Shown here piece by piece: positions 1-5,226 of a stretch of DNA of 33,892 bases. Origin of the DNA: an uncultured Gallionellaceae bacterium (GTDB lineage Bacteria > Pseudomonadota > Gammaproteobacteria > Burkholderiales > Gallionellaceae). Numbering within the stretch: the stretch's first letter is position 1; each line of letters opens with the position of its first letter. Position numbers and translations under genes: made by a program. The notes under the pieces were generated by a model. That model ran no database searches. It saw nothing but the letters and a program-made list of their open reading frames with translations, and was not told where the DNA came from. The DNA lies in the NCBI GenBank assembly GCA_903847155.1, contig CAINCU010000046.1, forward strand, positions 1 to 33,892. Direction: 5' to 3'.

Positions 1-1272
1 GTAGGTTTCCGGTGAACGCGCCTCATCTGCGGCGGCTTCAGTTGCGCCGGAGCCTTGCACCTGCACCAAACTTTCATTCAGCGCCAGATCCTGATGCGCT
101 TCCTTGAGCAGTGTCTGGATCATCTGCTCGGTTTCGGCATACGCGCCTTCGCCGAAATGCTGGTGGCGGATGCGGCCTTGCGCGTCGATCAGGTAATGCG
201 CGGGCCAGTATTCGTTGTGGTAGGCGTTCCAGATCGCGTACTGGTTATCCATCGCCACCGGATAGGTGATACCCAGTTCGCGTACGGCCTGCTCGACGTT
301 GTGCTGGTCTTTTTCGAAGGCGAACTCCGGCGCATGCACGCCAACGATGACCAGACCTTGCGCGCGATATTTTGCGTCCCACGCTTTCAGGTAGGGCAAT
401 GTGCGCAGGCAGTTGATGCAGGAGTAGGTCCAGAAATCCACCAGCACCACTTTGCCGCGCAGCATGTCATTGGTTAACGGCGGCGAGTTGAGCCACAACG
501 TTGCACCCGCCAGCGGCGGCATCATGGCGGCAGCGTCCACTTCGGTGGCGGCGGGGCGTTGTGCCAGACGTTCGATCAGCTTCTGTTCGGTGGCTGTGGT
601 GTTGGCCGAGGTGAACTGCGCGAGGAAGCGCGTATCCCAGCCGAAGGCGATAACCACGATGCCCGCCACCACCACCACCCCCAGCACACGGCGCACCCAT
701 TCCTCCACGCCGAAGCTGCGCTTCATCCAGCCGATGACACGCGCGCTGGCTAGCAAGGCCACCGCCAGCGAAGTCGCCGCTCCGGCAGCGAAGGTCAGCA
801 GCAACAGGGCGCTATACAGATTCACGCCGTGCAGCGCCGCACCCGCCAGCACCAGACCCAGTATCGGCCCGGCGCACGGTGCCCACAAAAAGCCGACGGC
901 CACACCCAGCAATAGCGAGCCTTTCATGCTGTCCTGCTGGTCGGCACGTTGTTGCAAATGTCCGCCGAGCGTGACGAACGGACGCATCATGCGTTCCGAC
1001 CACGATGGGAAAATCAGTGCCAGCCCCAACAACAGCAGCAACAGCATCGCCGCGTAACGCCCGTATTGGTTGACCTCCACCAGCCACGCACCACCCACCG
1101 CGGCCAGGCTGGCGAGCACGGTGAACGTCGCCGCCATGCCGAGCAGGATGGGCAAACCGGAGCGGCGGAACGATTGCTCGGAACGCGCAAAGACGAACGG
1201 CAGCACCGGCAACACACACGGGCTGAGGATGGTGAGGATGCCGCCGAGGTAGGCGAGCAGAAAAATTAACAT
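1..1272 (-). CDS. dipZ: DipZ-type thiol:disulfide interchange protein (C-terminus cut by window edge)
   Basis: Seen: 424 residues of an open frame running off the left edge. Residues 1-215 form a CcdA/DsbD-like membrane domain with paired cysteine motifs SPCVLP (C19) and APCAGP (C133). Residues about 255-395 form a TlpA-like thioredoxin domain with active site CINC (285-288). Family knowledge: DipZ proteins are about 570-600 residues, move electrons from cytoplasmic thioredoxin across the inner membrane, and end in a carbohydrate-binding-like module that would lie outside this window. The start is ATG with GGAG about 9 nt upstream. It lies downstream of msrB, which suggests it reduces the periplasmic methionine sulfoxide reductases. 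The domain call is secure; the electron acceptor is inferred. Confidence 0.9.
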   Translation of the reverse strand, partial: MLIFLLAYLGGILTILSPCVLPVLPFVFARSEQSFRRSGLPILLGMAATFTVLASLAAVGGAWLVEVNQYGRYAAMLLLLLLGLALIFPSWSERMMRPFVTLGGHLQQRADQQDSMKGSLLLGVAVGFLWAPCAGPILGLVLAGAALHGVNLYSALLLLTFAAGAATSLAVALLASARVIGWMKRSFGVEEWVRRVLGVVVVAGIVVIAFGWDTRFLAQFTSANTTATEQKLIERLAQRPAATEVDAAAMMPPLAGATLWLNSPPLTNDMLRGKVVLVDFWTYSCINCLRTLPYLKAWDAKYRAQGLVIVGVHAPEFAFEKDQHNVEQAVRELGITYPVAMDNQYAIWNAYHNEYWPAHYLIDAQGRIRHQHFGEGAYAETEQMIQTLLKEAHQDLALNESLVQVQGSGATEAAADEARSPETY

Positions 1273-1286
1273 GGGAATCTCCATTG

Positions 1287-1321
1287 GTAGGATGGGTATC
1301 GCTGCGCTCCACCCATCCTAC
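1287..1321. repeat. Palindromic intergenic repeat (11-bp stem)
   Basis: GTAGGATGGGT and its exact complement ACCCATCCTAC flank a 13-nt loop. It resembles the short GTAGGATGGGT-type palindromes scattered between genes in many proteobacteria. It lies between msrB and dipZ, so it would be transcribed as a hairpin if they are cotranscribed. Confidence 0.6.
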
Positions 1322-1341
1322 GATTTAGCAATTCAGGTTTT

Positions 1342-1408
1342 GTCATTCCGGCGAAGGCCGGAATCCAGTGTGTTAAATCAACTGGACACCGGCCTTCGCC
1401 GGTGTGAC
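1342..1408. repeat. Palindromic REP-like repeat, two GC-rich hairpins
   Basis: A GTCATTCCGGC-GAAG-GCCGGAAT hairpin is followed by a second hairpin (CACCGGC-CTTC-GCCGGTG), with matching outer arms (TCCAGT/ACTGGA and GTCA/TGAC). Such GTCATTCC-type elements are common dispersed repeats in beta- and gammaproteobacteria. It may act as a partial terminator or mRNA stabiliser after msrB. Confidence 0.65.
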
Positions 1409-1427
1409 GAATTCCTGATAACAGTTT

Positions 1428-1967
1428 TTATTTCGGTTTCGGCACAAACCGCAGCGCAACGGTGTTCATGCAATAGCGCAGTCCGGTAGGCTTAGGGCCG
1501 TCGTCGAACACATGACCCAGATGCGCATCGCAAAGAGTGCAGCGTACTTCGGTGCGCATCATGCCGTACATGGAATCGGTGACAACGTGCACGTTCTCCT
1601 GTGCGATGGGTTGCCAGAAGCTGGGCCAGCCGGTGCCGGAATCGTATTTGGATTTCGCGTCGAACAGTGCGTTGTCGCAGCACACGCAGCGGTAAAGCCC
1701 CTGCTCGTGCCGGTTGTAACCGGGTTGCGAGAACGCGCGCTCGGTGCCTTGTTGCCGTGTCACTTCATAGGCCAATGACGACAGGGTTTTTTTCCACTCG
1801 GCTTCTTTATGTACCTTGGGCACGGTGGCCAATCCCAGCGGCTTGCCATCGTCGGAAAAGCGCATGACTGATACTTCATCGTTGGCGGGCGTCATCCCGC
1901 CAAAAGAGCGCGTTGAGAACGCCAGCGCCACCCCGGATAAAGCATGTAAGAATTCTCTGCGTAGCAT
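1428..1967 (-). CDS. msrB: Periplasmic peptide-methionine (R)-S-oxide reductase with Tat signal
   Basis: It reduces the R-epimer of methionine sulfoxide in proteins. Seen: 179 residues; an N-terminal twin-arginine type signal (RREFLHALSG, residues 3-12); structural zinc cysteines C94/C97 and C143/C146; the GTGWPSFWQP core (111-120); catalytic C166 in RYCMN. The start is well supported by AGGAGGTGA, a near-perfect Shine-Dalgarno, a few bases upstream. Most bacterial MsrB proteins are cytoplasmic, so the export signal points to an envelope role together with the secreted MsrA nearby. It has its own candidate sigma-F promoter at 2030-2055 and is followed by dipZ, its likely electron source. Confidence 0.95.
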   Translation of the reverse strand: MLRREFLHALSGVALAFSTRSFGGMTPANDEVSVMRFSDDGKPLGLATVPKVHKEAEWKKTLSSLAYEVTRQQGTERAFSQPGYNRHEQGLYRCVCCDNALFDAKSKYDSGTGWPSFWQPIAQENVHVVTDSMYGMMRTEVRCTLCDAHLGHVFDDGPKPTGLRYCMNTVALRFVPKPK

Positions 1968-2029
1968 GATGTCACCTCCTGTGAATCTGGTTGAAACCGA
2001 TACTTTGGTTATCTCTATCTGCTACTTGA

Positions 2030-2055
2030 TTCGTTTTTGCCCGAAAAATAGTTAC
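2030..2055 (-). promoter_or_regulatory. Candidate ECF sigma-F promoter for msrB(-dipZ)
   Basis: On the minus strand GTAACT is followed by exactly 16 nt and CGAA. The Caulobacter SigF consensus is GTAACC-N16-CGAA, so 9 of 10 positions match with the right spacing. Transcription would start near 2022, giving a leader of roughly 55 nt before msrB. The spacer resembles that of the promoter at 3849-3874 (a T-run after the -35 element). Confidence 0.7.
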
Positions 2056-2096
2056 AGAATCTTTCCAATACCAAGGCGACACATCGCAAATTTGAT

Positions 2097-2804
2097 CTAC
2101 GACACAAACGGCGGCGCGCGGCCGACCAATGCTTCCGCCATGATCAACTCATCGTCGGTATGGTTGGGATGCGTCAGACGATCCGCTTCATGGATGCATT
2201 GTCCGGCGGATCCCTTGCCGTAGATATATAGCGGCTTGTCGTGATGCTTGGACACTACCGTCTCGTTGCTGGTTGCATCGCCGTTGGCGCTGACATCCAC
2301 TTCGCCGTAGCAATCGCAGAAATAGGTTTTCTCCGGCCCCGCTTCCAGATAAACCCCGGTGCCGCGAATGCCGATGGTGGCCGTCGGCGTTGCTATGCGC
2401 AGGCCTTTGTTGCGCGACACGGAAAGCAGCTTGCCGGCAAACAGGCGCAAACCGCCGATCAATAGCGAGGCGAGATCGTTGCTGTCTTTGCGCTCGATCA
2501 CCAGATGGCTGCCGCCGCGCAACAGCATGGCATGGTCGCCAACCACGAACACCAGTTCGGCGCCCTCTGCGGTCTTCACCGTGTCGCCGGGGACGATGCG
2601 CGTGTTGGCATCCACCCGGTTGCCGTTCACCCAGGCATGCCCCTTCACCCGATACACCGACTGCGTGGCAGGCAATTTTTCTGGCGGACTGAAAATTCCC
2701 GCGATGGCTCTGCCGGCTGGCAGCAGCAACACCAGCAACGCAGCACCCACGCCTTGCACCAAACGTCTGCGTTGCAAATTGGTCGGCATATATTTCTGGC
2801 TCAT
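2097..2804 (-). CDS. Tat-exported FecR-domain protein
   Basis: Seen: 235 residues. An RRR-plus-hydrophobic export signal (residues 12-36, ending AIAG) is followed by a FecR domain at about 50-160, with the typical VKGHAWVNG, GDTVKTAEGAELV and TIGIRGTGVYLE blocks. A cysteine pair FCDC (163, 165) and C203 could be redox active. FecR domains are usually in anti-sigma regulators of iron uptake, but this protein lacks an N-terminal cytoplasmic sigma-binding region, so it is better seen as a periplasmic sensor or structural protein. The chosen ATG has GGAG 6-7 nt upstream; an in-frame ATG at 2816 lacks a Shine-Dalgarno. It sits 45 nt after msrA, probably in the same operon. Specific role unknown. 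Confidence 0.8.
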   Translation of the reverse strand: MSQKYMPTNLQRRRLVQGVGAALLVLLLPAGRAIAGIFSPPEKLPATQSVYRVKGHAWVNGNRVDANTRIVPGDTVKTAEGAELVFVVGDHAMLLRGGSHLVIERKDSNDLASLLIGGLRLFAGKLLSVSRNKGLRIATPTATIGIRGTGVYLEAGPEKTYFCDCYGEVDVSANGDATSNETVVSKHHDKPLYIYGKGSAGQCIHEADRLTHPNHTDDELIMAEALVGRAPPFVS

Positions 2805-2849
2805 TTGGCGCTCCATCGGTTGATTGGGGTTAATTGCGGCACAGCAACA

Positions 2850-3473
2850 TTATTGGTACAGCGCCGGAAATTGCCTGTGCAAATGGCTAAGCTTGGGCTG
2901 ATCGTTGAACACAATGTAAGGTTGGAACGGATGTAGCGCTAGATAATTCTGGTGGTAATCCTCCGCCGGATAGAACTGTTTCAGCGGCACTACCTGGGTG
3001 ACGATGGGCGAAGAAAAAGCGTGCGTAGCGGTGAGTCTTTGAATATAGCTTTGTGCGATATTCATCTGCTCGGTGCTGGTGTAAAAGATCGCCGAACGGT
3101 ATTGGCTGCCCGTGTCCGGCCCTTGGCGGTTCAGCTCGGTCGGGTCGTGTGCCACATAAAAGAACACTTGCAGCAGTTGCTGGTAGGAAACCTGTTGCAG
3201 ATTGAAATTCACGCGCACCGACTCAGCATGCCCGGTGCGGCCCGTGCTCACATCGTCGTAATGCGCGGTGTCGGCATCGCCGCCTGCATAGCCGGACACC
3301 ACATCCGTCACGCCTTTGACGTGCTTGAATACGGCATCCACGCCCCAGAAGCAGCCGCCCGCGAACACCGCCGTCTGCTCGACAGGTTCGGCTCTGACGC
3401 TGGTCAGCCCGGCCAGACCCAGCAACAGGAACAGGCTGCTGCCGATGATCAAATTGCTGTTGATGCTTAACAT
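2850..3473 (-). CDS. msrA: Secreted peptide-methionine (S)-S-oxide reductase
   Basis: It reduces the S-epimer of methionine sulfoxide. Seen: 207 residues; a Sec signal peptide (1-28, cleavage after VRA); catalytic motif GGCFWG with C41; the conserved HDPTELNRQGPDTGSQYRSA core; the YHQNYL/PYI C-terminal block. C41 is the only cysteine in the protein, so no resolving cysteine is present and regeneration must use an external thiol, plausibly DipZ. The start at 3473 is chosen because AAAGGAG precedes it; an upstream in-frame ATG at 3494 has no Shine-Dalgarno and would place residues before the signal peptide. It follows the methionine-rich peptide gene by 35 nt. Confidence 0.95.
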   Translation of the reverse strand: MLSINSNLIIGSSLFLLLGLAGLTSVRAEPVEQTAVFAGGCFWGVDAVFKHVKGVTDVVSGYAGGDADTAHYDDVSTGRTGHAESVRVNFNLQQVSYQQLLQVFFYVAHDPTELNRQGPDTGSQYRSAIFYTSTEQMNIAQSYIQRLTATHAFSSPIVTQVVPLKQFYPAEDYHQNYLALHPFQPYIVFNDQPKLSHLHRQFPALYQ

Positions 3474-3508
3474 GATGACTCTCCTTTCACTCATCCGAAA
3501 CTGTATTG

Positions 3509-3760
3509 CTATTTACCCATCGAATCCTGCATGGGCATGGCTTCTTTTTTCATGGACTTCTTGTGCATTGGTTTCTTTTTTGCCATAGAAGTTTTGTTCA
3601 TGGCGCTATCGTCCTTTGAGTCTTTTTTCATCATGGCATCCTTACTCATGCCATCGTTGTTCATTGCACCTTTGTCCATCGGCATTGCATCCATGGCCAG
3701 TGCCAAGCCACTTGATGCGGTCAGGCAAAGTGCGAGTAATACGGAAGAAAGTTTGTTCAT
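3509..3760 (-). CDS. mrpX: Secreted methionine-rich peptide, MXKDX-repeat / MrpX-like
   Basis: Seen: 83 residues; a Sec signal (1-22, cleaved after LALA); then a 61-residue mature chain with 14 methionines, mostly spaced with Lys and Asp (MDKG, MSKD, MKKD, MHKK). There is no cysteine or aromatic residue in the mature chain. This matches the 'pentapeptide MXKDX repeat' small-protein type. Established: in Azospira suillum a periplasmic methionine-rich peptide (MrpX) under SigF/NrsF control scavenges hypochlorite by methionine oxidation and is regenerated by a sulfoxide reductase. Here the gene lies between msrA and sigF/nrsF and has a sigma-F type promoter. AAGGAGAT lies 6 nt before the ATG. 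Copper binding is an alternative role. The symbol is by analogy. Confidence 0.85.
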   Translation of the reverse strand: MNKLSSVLLALCLTASSGLALAMDAMPMDKGAMNNDGMSKDAMMKKDSKDDSAMNKTSMAKKKPMHKKSMKKEAMPMQDSMGK

Positions 3761-3848
3761 TTAAATCTCCTTGATTAAAGTAATTGGCTTCAACGCCTAT
3801 GGTTTGGTATTGTGAAATCAGGCAATACAACCCCCCTGCGCAAGTTAG

Positions 3849-3874
3849 TTCGAGCGGCGCGGAAAAAAGGTTAC
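3849..3874 (-). promoter_or_regulatory. Candidate ECF sigma-F promoter for mrpX-msrA-fecR
   Basis: The minus strand reads GTAACC, 16 nt, CGAA, an exact match to the sigma-F consensus reported for Caulobacter. It lies in the divergent region between mrpX and the sigma factor gene. Transcription would start near 3841, leaving a leader of about 80 nt before the mrpX ATG. Confidence 0.8.
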
Positions 3875-3894
3875 AAATAATTTTTGGAAATTGA

Positions 3895-4434
3895 TTGACA
3901 GAGCAAACCAACAATCTGGAAGCGCTGATGCGCCAGTCTCTGGCTGGAGACCAGCGCGCTTATGTCGAATTGCTGCAAGCCACCACACGCTTGCTGCGTC
4001 CTTTTCTGTCCAAACGCCTAAGTTTTTCCAGCGAGGTGGATGACGTGTTGCAGGAGATACTCATCTCTATCCACAAGGCGCGCCATACCTATGACGGCCA
4101 GCGCCCCTACAAGCCGTGGGCGTTCGCTATCGCCAGTTTTCGCCTGCAAGATCACCTGCGCATGCTCTACGCCGACCAGTTGCGCCATGCCACCGATTTC
4201 GACGAGCTGGAAGAAAGTTTGCATGAAGATGTAACCGAATCCGCGATCAGCTACGAATCAATCAGCAAGGAAGTGGAAAAACTTCCCGAGAAGCAGGCGA
4301 CCATCCTGCGCTTGATGCATCAGGACGGTTTCACCGCCAAGGAAGTGGCCGAGAAGATCGGCATGAAAGAATCGGCAGTGAAAGTCGCGGCGCACCGCGC
4401 CTACAAAGTATTAAAAGAAAGATTGGAAAGATAA
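3895..4434 (+). CDS. sigF: ECF sigma factor, SigF type
   Basis: Directs RNA polymerase to stress promoters. Seen: 179 residues; sigma-70 region 2 at about 18-95 (including SSEVDDVLQEI and the promoter-melting segment RPYKPWAFAIASFRLQDH) and region 4 at about 125-177 (LPEKQATILRL, then a helix-turn-helix TAKEVAEKIGMKESAVKVAAHRA). The start is TTG, since an in-frame stop lies immediately upstream; an ATG at 3928 preceded by GGAAG would remove conserved N-terminal residues. The ATG of the anti-sigma gene overlaps its stop codon (TAATG), so the two are translationally coupled. No GTAACC-N16-CGAA copy faces this gene, so positive autoregulation is not evident. Confidence 0.9.
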   Translation: MTEQTNNLEALMRQSLAGDQRAYVELLQATTRLLRPFLSKRLSFSSEVDDVLQEILISIHKARHTYDGQRPYKPWAFAIASFRLQDHLRMLYADQLRHATDFDELEESLHEDVTESAISYESISKEVEKLPEKQATILRLMHQDGFTAKEVAEKIGMKESAVKVAAHRAYKVLKERLER

Positions 4435-5069
4435 TGACCAACATCAATGACCTCGTGGCCAACCTGGCGCAAGAGGCGAGCGCAGTGAAACCGGCACCGC
4501 ACCCGTTCCTGCTCAGCCTGCAATGGATGGGCGCTGCCGCCATCTATCTGGCCGTGTCGCTTGCCTTCTCCGGCCTGCGCCCGCAAATTGTCGAACACCT
4601 GCAAAACGTGTGGTTCGCCGCCGAAATCGCCACGCTGCTCACTCTCTTCATCGTCACCTCGCTCAGTGCCGCGTTGCTAGCCTTCCCTGACTTGCACCAG
4701 AAACGCCGTCTAGCGTTCGCGCCAATTGCTTCCTTCGCGCTGTTTTTGCTCGTCATGATTTTCGCTTGGGGCGCCGACAGCCCGCCCGCGCCGTTGCCGG
4801 TACACAGCTTCGAATGCACACTCAGCATCACCCTGATGACACTGTTGCCCGCCGTGTGGACGTTCTACTCCCTGCGCCAATATGCCAGCACCCACTATCA
4901 CTTGGCAGGCTGCGTCGCCTCGCTCTCCGCGTTCAGCGTCGGTGCACTCTGGATGCGCCTGCATGAGGCCAACGACTCGATCGCCCACGTTGTCGAGTGG
5001 CATTACCTGCCGATGCTGGGCATCGGCTTGCTGGGCTTGTGGCTGGGAAAAGTATTCTTGAAATGGTGA
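4434..5069 (+). CDS. nrsF: NrsF-family (DUF1109) membrane anti-sigma factor
   Basis: Seen: 211 residues with six predicted membrane spans (about 27-47, 62-83, 94-112, 128-147, 156-174, 190-208) after a short cytoplasmic N-terminus. Family knowledge: NrsF/DUF1109 proteins are encoded next to SigF and hold it at the membrane until oxidants or metals act, with conserved cysteines implicated in sensing in Caulobacter and Azospira. Two cysteines are present here, C128 (in FECTLS) and C160 (in AGCVAS), both near predicted membrane edges. The one-base overlap with sigF supports a sigma/anti-sigma pair made in fixed ratio. Confidence 0.88.
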   Translation: MTNINDLVANLAQEASAVKPAPHPFLLSLQWMGAAAIYLAVSLAFSGLRPQIVEHLQNVWFAAEIATLLTLFIVTSLSAALLAFPDLHQKRRLAFAPIASFALFLLVMIFAWGADSPPAPLPVHSFECTLSITLMTLLPAVWTFYSLRQYASTHYHLAGCVASLSAFSVGALWMRLHEANDSIAHVVEWHYLPMLGIGLLGLWLGKVFLKW

Positions 5070-5106
5070 CGAACGGCACTGATTTCATTTAACACACCTC
5101 ATGGAG

Positions 5107-5127
5107 ATGCCCGTCAATAGGCGATCT
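5107..5127 (+). repeat. 21-nt repeat, copy A (inverted partner at 7751-7771)
   Basis: Core GCCCGTCAATAGGCGATCT, with AT in front, recurs exactly as the reverse complement 2.6 kb away. Both copies are intergenic. The 157-nt gap between nrsF and the antiporter contains nothing else I recognise. Confidence 0.6.
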
Positions 5128-5226
5128 ACGCTGTGCGTTTGATGGAGATTGCCGAGGTTATTTGATTGCAGGCAATGCAGATTTTGGTAGCTGCCAATTG
5201 TTAATTTGAAGCTTGGGTGACTAGCT

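Follow-up and report, generated by a model that had tools for sequence, protein, structure and literature searches.

In Bradyrhizobium japonicum, the ECF16 sigma factor EcfF and its NrsF-type anti-sigma factor OsrA, described in 2012, control three methionine sulfoxide reductase (Msr) genes together with a periplasmic thioredoxin and a DsbD-beta protein, and the authors proposed that the thioredoxin/DsbD pair feeds the co-regulated periplasmic Msr (PMC3420878). Similar regulator pairs are described beside genes for a methionine-rich peptide and a methionine sulfoxide reductase in the SigF/NrsF-MrpX-YedY1 system of Azospira suillum and the BcrS/AbcS-BcrXQP system of Brucella (PMC8315932). Exported MsrA and MsrB, predicted to be periplasmic, were noted in 2015 in two perchlorate islands, a kind of island whose stress genes include sigF/nrsF, yedYZ and mrpX (PMC4623255), and chlorite dismutase near Msr genes and a regulator of this type is likewise already in print (PMC9751292). 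The locus considered here lies at the start of a 33,892-nucleotide stretch of DNA (the window) from an uncultured Gallionellaceae bacterium, corresponding to contig CAINCU010000046.1 (C46), one of the 76 contigs of a 3.08 Mb genome. In this island sigF and nrsF, on the plus strand, diverge from genes for a Met-rich peptide, MsrA, a FecR-like protein, MsrB and DipZ, all on the minus strand.

The island is probably an envelope module against methionine oxidation, controlled by the ECF16-type sigma factor SigF in a manner that differs from the characterised systems. In the proposed working, NrsF would hold SigF at the membrane until an oxidant- or metal-linked signal on the periplasmic face of NrsF freed it. 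SigF would then transcribe the operon of the Met-rich peptide, msrA and FecR-like genes, as well as msrB and perhaps dipZ. The peptide would take up oxidant on its Met residues, the 1-Cys MsrA and MsrB would reduce the S and R sulfoxides respectively, and DipZ would bring reducing power from the cytoplasm, from its CcdA part to the CxxC of its TlpA part. SigF would also transcribe nrsF, from a promoter within sigF, and not its own gene; with nrsF driven instead of sigF, the loop would therefore be negative.

A scavenge-and-repair cycle under SigF/NrsF had been put forward in the preliminary description of this DNA. It gains support from the gene neighbourhood, from the promoters before the Met-rich gene and msrB, and from the lack of a PF00174 match, but the idea was largely anticipated by EcfF/OsrA, in which thiol-dependent Msr and a reductant pair are already placed under an ECF16 sigma factor with GTAAC...CG promoters (PMC3420878). 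The EcfF targets are described as seven distinct transcription units instead of a single island; ecfF is preceded by a promoter of its own, and OsrA has both sensory cysteines. The Brucella promoter motif is the same as that found here, while the Azospira and Brucella systems have enzymes of the MsrP/MsrQ type (YedYZ) where this island has MsrA, MsrB and DipZ (PMC8315932). In the perchlorate islands, the Msr genes are described beside perchlorate reduction genes (PMC4623255). Bufferin clusters with NrsF place the same regulator pair beside DUF2282/MNIO/DUF2063/DoxX genes, as in some relatives of the present locus, yet their payload is metal-chelating peptides, not Met repair (PMC12452194).

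The ECF16 promoter motif, tGTAACc-N16-CGAA (PMC3420878; PMC3511200), is found exactly at 3849-3874 on the minus strand, 88 nt before the Met-rich gene, and with one mismatch (GTAACT-N16-CGAA) at 2030-2055 on the same strand, 62 nt before msrB. Across 59 loci (the window and its family), 83 GTAAC-N17-CGAA sites were counted against seven for the reversed pattern. Of these sites, 32 precede msrB, 11 a bufferin precursor gene and five FecR-like genes; the 26 that precede none of the searched proteins include sites before Met-rich genes. A site on the operon strand lies 300-1100 bp before nrsF in 44 of the 55 loci with enough sequence. The existence of many further SigF targets in the genome was considered and rejected, as besides the island only two of 20 genome-wide matches (L008 and L021) have an open reading frame (ORF) of at least 100 aa within 250 bp downstream, and the L021 match itself sits within another ORF.

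The comparison of related genomes bears out the expectation that the neighbouring genes are conserved together. An NrsF match is present in 58 of 158 family genomes, the window's own included. Neighbours were counted on both strands, in the span between 9 kb before and 4 kb after nrsF, for the 49 family loci (from 58 in other genomes) with 5 kb or more of sequence on the operon side. All three of msrA, msrB and dipZ are present in 33 of these; individually, msrB is found in 41, msrA in 37 and dipZ in 35. This conservation led to a chance gene arrangement being rejected. FecR-like genes (13 of 49) and bufferin-type MNIO genes (14) are less frequent, and chlorite dismutase and PF00174-like genes occur in three loci each. 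The Met-rich gene, present in the window as had been claimed, adjoins sigF-nrsF in just 13 of the 49 by the chosen cut-offs (opposite strand, 300-1400 bp before nrsF, at least 14% Met). The commonest gene order is msrB-dipZ-msrA (23 of 57 maps, window included), with msrA first in the window, L041 and L045. As the gene maps missed NrsF in L038, L071 and many loci of the second clade defined below, the family counts come from the separate neighbour count. The nearest locus belongs to a Sideroxydans metagenome-assembled genome (MAG; L041/L136), with an NrsF 83% identical to that of the window, and carriers of the same NrsF type include Sideroxydans, Gallionella, Candidatus Nitrotoga, Sulfuricella, Sulfuriferula, Nitrosomonas and two alphaproteobacterial MAGs. 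A regulator studied in oxidant defence is linked in this way to oxidisers of iron, nitrite, ammonia and sulfur.

Two other sets of genes were observed beside this regulator pair. In three Candidatus Nitrotoga loci (L047-L049), 99.7% alike over 10.3 kb, sigF-nrsF of the same type stands divergent to an operon of chlorite dismutase, a thioredoxin-like gene and msrB, and a sigmaF motif precedes that operon. Bufferin-type genes (DUF2282, MNIO, DUF2063, DoxX) adjoin it in L029, L032, L055, L061, L064, L073, L082, L083 and others, and several of these sets are preceded by sigmaF motifs.

Several observations weigh against a SigF-controlled repair module of this extent. There is no enrichment of the motif in the whole genome (20 GTAAC-N17-CGAA matches against 49 of the reversed pattern) or, allowing up to two mismatches, in the window (26 matches against 21.9 expected); therefore the evidence lies in the position of the sites, not in their number, two of the 20 genomic matches being in this island, both correctly oriented ahead of a target gene. 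No sigmaF motif of its own was found for dipZ. Two inverted repeats lie between msrB and dipZ, a perfect one of 11 nt (1287-1297/1311-1321) and one of 31 nt with 84% complementarity (1339-1369/1381-1411), and could end or weaken transcription into dipZ. Electron flow from DipZ to the reductases is putative. An NrsF match is absent from 100 of the 158 family genomes, of which many are incomplete, and is present in 39 of 94 good-quality ones; eight of the 49 full loci have no Msr gene beside sigF-nrsF; and the sequences are related, so that the counts are not independent.

The regulators themselves fall into two clades. With an author-chosen cut of at least 45% identity to the window's sigF, clade A comprises 70 loci and clade B 24, and a 100/100 branch separates them in the midpoint-rooted tree, from which the split is read. 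These were drawn from 100 loci (the window and L026-L125 without L084), in three of which sigF was not found (L034, L106, L110); L048 and L049, near-copies of L047, and the partial L078 were left out. NrsF-type proteins have two conserved cysteines, C131/C181 in Caulobacter and C129/C179 in OsrA, of which, in OsrA, C129 is reported to be required to hold EcfF and C179 to respond to H2O2 (PMC3420878). In the NrsF comparison, which leaves out L038, L041 and L098 (start not found), the first cysteine (Cys128) is kept in all 68 clade A and all 23 clade B proteins. The second sensory position is glutamate (Glu178) in 68 of 68 clade A proteins and cysteine in 20 of 23 from clade B. His124, His185 and His190 are also invariant in clade A (68 of 68), while clade B has mostly Thr/Ser, Phe and Tyr there. 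Among further loci, L138 does not show the HxxxC pattern, though the Glu and His residues in question are still visible in its tail.

This residue swap hints at a different, perhaps metal-linked, sensor. The preliminary description had suggested a trigger other than hypochlorite. The absence here of the cysteine on which the H2O2 response of OsrA depends leaves room for one; set against this, chlorite dismutase accompanies the same sigF-nrsF in the three Nitrotoga loci. Binding of a metal (Cu, Fe or other) at His124/Cys128/Glu178/His185/His190 is a real possibility for the signal. All five residues are invariant in the 68 clade A proteins and four of the five differ in clade B. In a confident predicted model of NrsF (mean pLDDT 90.5, six long helices), residues 115-128 and 178-190 fall at the loops joining helices 3-4 and 5-6 and the starts of the following helices, on the same side of the membrane, which would be periplasmic according to a published topology (PMC3511200). 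A fold search with the model against the PDB returned nothing at E 0.001 or better. Bufferin-type genes stand beside the same sigF-nrsF type in 14 of the 49 full loci, and bufferins are described as chelating copper (PMC12452194). Equally, the conserved His and Glu residues may be structural, and OsrA Cys129, the equivalent of Cys128, is predicted to lie in the membrane (PMC3420878).

That the signal is a reactive chlorine species, hypochlorite or another, as described for Azospira and Brucella, is also possible, if slightly less likely than a metal signal. Against it, the periplasmic cysteine of the OsrA H2O2 response is Glu in all 68 clade A proteins, and lithotrophs of Fe, N and S are among the named carriers. 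A signal of this kind would agree with the presence of a Met-rich peptide of MxKDx type, with the divergent chlorite dismutase operon of the Nitrotoga loci, with the known presence of regulator pairs of this type and of Msr systems around chlorite dismutase genes (PMC9751292), and with the reported response of Brucella BcrS/AbcS to HOCl (PMC8315932).

The second departure concerns the sigF gene itself (3895-4434, plus strand, TTG start). No exact GTAAC-N17-CGAA lies upstream of it on its own strand, the best match there having three mismatches. Within the gene, on the sigF strand, an element readable as tGTAAC-N18-CGAA or GTAACC-N17-CGAA occupies 4231-4257 (codons 113-121), about 180 bp before nrsF. 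The exact internal element is found in 66 of 70 clade A loci and none of the 24 in clade B, where the exact motif stands upstream of sigF on its own strand in 22; in clade A the upstream motif occurs in none of 70, or in one if a single mismatch is allowed. Sixteen further loci all have the element inside sigF and none upstream. The shuffle control for these element counts was a simple letter shuffle.

The bases of the element appear locked at third codon positions. In 86 clade A genes, codon 112 ends in T in 82 of them, whichever of nine amino acids (Asp, Pro, Asn, Ala, His, Tyr, Ser, Cys or Thr) it encodes; Val113 is GTA in all 83 genes with Val, as against 106 of 657 other Val codons in the 70 clade A genes. 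Tyr120 is TAC in 82 of 83 and Glu121 is GAA in 85 of 86, with little bias in spacer codons 116-119. Codons 113 and 112 rank highest in constraint score of all sigF codons. This implies that selection acts on the DNA within the sigF coding sequence, most simply to maintain a sigmaF promoter for nrsF, so that SigF probably drives its own anti-sigma factor. There is a demonstrated precedent in Corynebacterium glutamicum, in which rshA, the anti-sigma gene, is transcribed on its own from a SigH promoter located in sigH, an arrangement that the authors suggest allows quick shut-off (PMC3489674); it differs in organism, in its -35 and -10 sequences and in its SigH-type regulon. The sigma operon of Brucella is described as autoregulated from upstream (PMC8315932), which resembles clade B.

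Some features fit a promoter for nrsF less well. Its spacer is 17 bases, compared to 16 in the target promoters, and the element may hence be weak or serve another purpose; a bias exists within the spacer too, at codon 115, whose third base is A in 82 of 86 genes; and scores that are equally high or nearly so are reached outside the element, at codons 179, 172 and 174 close to the start of nrsF and at codons 125, 80 and 108. That the GTAAC...CGAA sequence is not a promoter, and instead forms another DNA or RNA signal needing the same bases (for instance a pause or decoy site for the SigF holoenzyme, or an element of the mRNA), would accord with the 17-base spacer, the bias at codon 115 and the pausing that intragenic sigma-like sequences can cause (PMC10771440), but is improbable given that the two promoter halves and the T before them carry the strongest constraint, that from clade to clade the element takes the place of the upstream promoter, and that rshA provides the precedent of a SigH promoter within sigH (PMC3489674).

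Four clade A genes, L032, L040, L064 and L075, do not have the exact internal element. In L032 and L064, sigF-nrsF follows bufferin genes carrying a sigmaF motif on the same strand, yet L029, L061 and L073 share this layout and keep the element; no exact motif was found in the scanned stretch of L075. The third base of sigF codon 125, just past the proposed transcription start, is preferentially G in clade A (59 of 86).

If the internal nrsF promoter and the altered sensor are taken together, a wider reading can be offered tentatively. A whole ECF16 clade may have moved from self-amplification to self-limitation, through loss of the sigF promoter and possession of an nrsF promoter inside sigF, and from a cysteine redox sensor to a His/Glu/Cys metal site, such that a metal-linked signal would switch on periplasmic Met repair (elsewhere bufferins or chlorite dismutase) in lithotrophs. 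In the open-access literature searched, neither an internal nrsF promoter in SigF/NrsF systems nor the His/Glu variant of NrsF was seen to be reported. The control logic of this regulator is probably not uniform, and owing to the residue swap in NrsF, cysteine-switch results from Caulobacter or Bradyrhizobium are not simply transferable. The codon-locked element allows a prediction as precise as one base position, and the comparison raises the question of how one sigma/anti-sigma pair is rewired to different signals while similar target genes are kept.

All seven genes of the island, as previously described, were confirmed by gene calls and family matches. The SigF protein matches the ECF sigma family TIGR02937 at 76.1 bits (cut-off 42.9). 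NrsF, a six-helix membrane protein encoded at 4434-5069 on the plus strand, matches PF06532 at 140.7 bits (cut-off 26.8) and falls below the cut-off of the NCBIfam equivalog AntiSigF_NrsF (34.2 bits against 300). On the minus strand, the MsrA (2850-3494) scores 175.6 bits against TIGR00401 (cut-off 108.1), and the MsrB (1428-1967) 186.7 bits against TIGR00357 (cut-off 113.05). The peptide gene (3509-3760, minus strand) encodes 83 aa of a divergent MxKDx type, which does not reach the curated TIGR02953 cut-off (30.4 bits against 41, E 2.9e-7); of 14 peptides found at the same position in relatives, four were tested, two passing with 56.4 and 55.2 bits, one scoring 40.3 and one giving no match. 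Its mature form of 61 residues with 14 Met assumes cleavage after residue 22, placed by eye. All signal peptides were judged in this way, with no predictor; the reading supports the claimed export of MsrA and the peptide (Sec-like), and of MsrB (RREFL) and the FecR-like protein (RRRLVQG) by Tat-like signals.

The MsrA has a single cysteine (GCFWG), and the MsrB, with an RYCxN catalytic site and two CxxC motifs, has the sequence SGTGWPSF, with Thr at the usual position of the resolving cysteine. Many MsrB proteins carry a resolving Cys at this position. When all loci are pooled, second copies included, 41 of 45 MsrA have no cysteine after GCFW and 46 of 53 MsrB have SGTGWPSF. Such 1-Cys enzymes need an outside reductant, a role that DipZ could fill. 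The dedicated reductant carrier of the preliminary description gains support, in that MsrA and MsrB without the usual resolving cysteines stand beside a CcdA-TlpA-Thioredoxin_10 protein. The accompanying claim, that the two enzymes replace a molybdenum enzyme, agrees with a scan of the whole genome, in which nothing matched the PF00174 molybdenum oxidoreductase family at E <= 0.001, but does not extend to all relatives: both types occur together in L026, L028, L119-L121 and L123, and PF00174-like genes lie near three of the 49 family loci, so that replacement everywhere was rejected. The two look like interchangeable modules.

The island is complete in its gene set, but not within the window. 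The first 428 codons of dipZ (1-1284, minus strand), encoding a CcdA-type membrane domain with Cys in SPC and APC motifs and a TlpA-like domain (CINC), run into the end of the contig. The remaining codons lie on contig C65, the first 141 bp of which overlap the window contig exactly, giving a 569-aa protein that combines CcdA, TlpA-like and Thioredoxin_10-type parts. Its N-terminal part passes the Pfam cut-offs for DsbD_TM (34.2; cut-off 27.1) and AhpC-TSA (44.1; cut-off 26), whereas PF17991 (Thioredoxin_10) was scored on the full-length DipZ of a relative, the C-terminus of which matches C65:1-564 at 68% identity. Beyond dipZ, the 8 kb of C65 examined hold genes seemingly unrelated to the island.

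The FecR-like gene (2097-2816, minus strand) encodes a probably exported protein, below the curated PF04773 cut-off (18.3 against 24). In a PDB search, its predicted fold (mean pLDDT 77) lies near a putative anti-sigma factor and a PupR periplasmic signalling domain (4m0h and 6ovk; E about 1e-5 to 1e-4, TM 0.42-0.48). Its CxC, HHD and HxDxEL motifs, the last part of a C-terminal HxDxEL...EALxGRxPPF, are conserved, and the gene recurs near msrB or bufferin genes across loci. Our guess is that the protein acts in the periplasm as a metal- or redox-binding accessory and thereby tunes the response.

Finally, a decayed second copy of sigF-nrsF is present on contig C63 of the same genome (locus L084, 15546-15935), in a frame of 130 aa. 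Its adjacent pieces match window positions 3911-4032, at the start of sigF, and 4813-5154, at the end of nrsF, with 84-89% identity.

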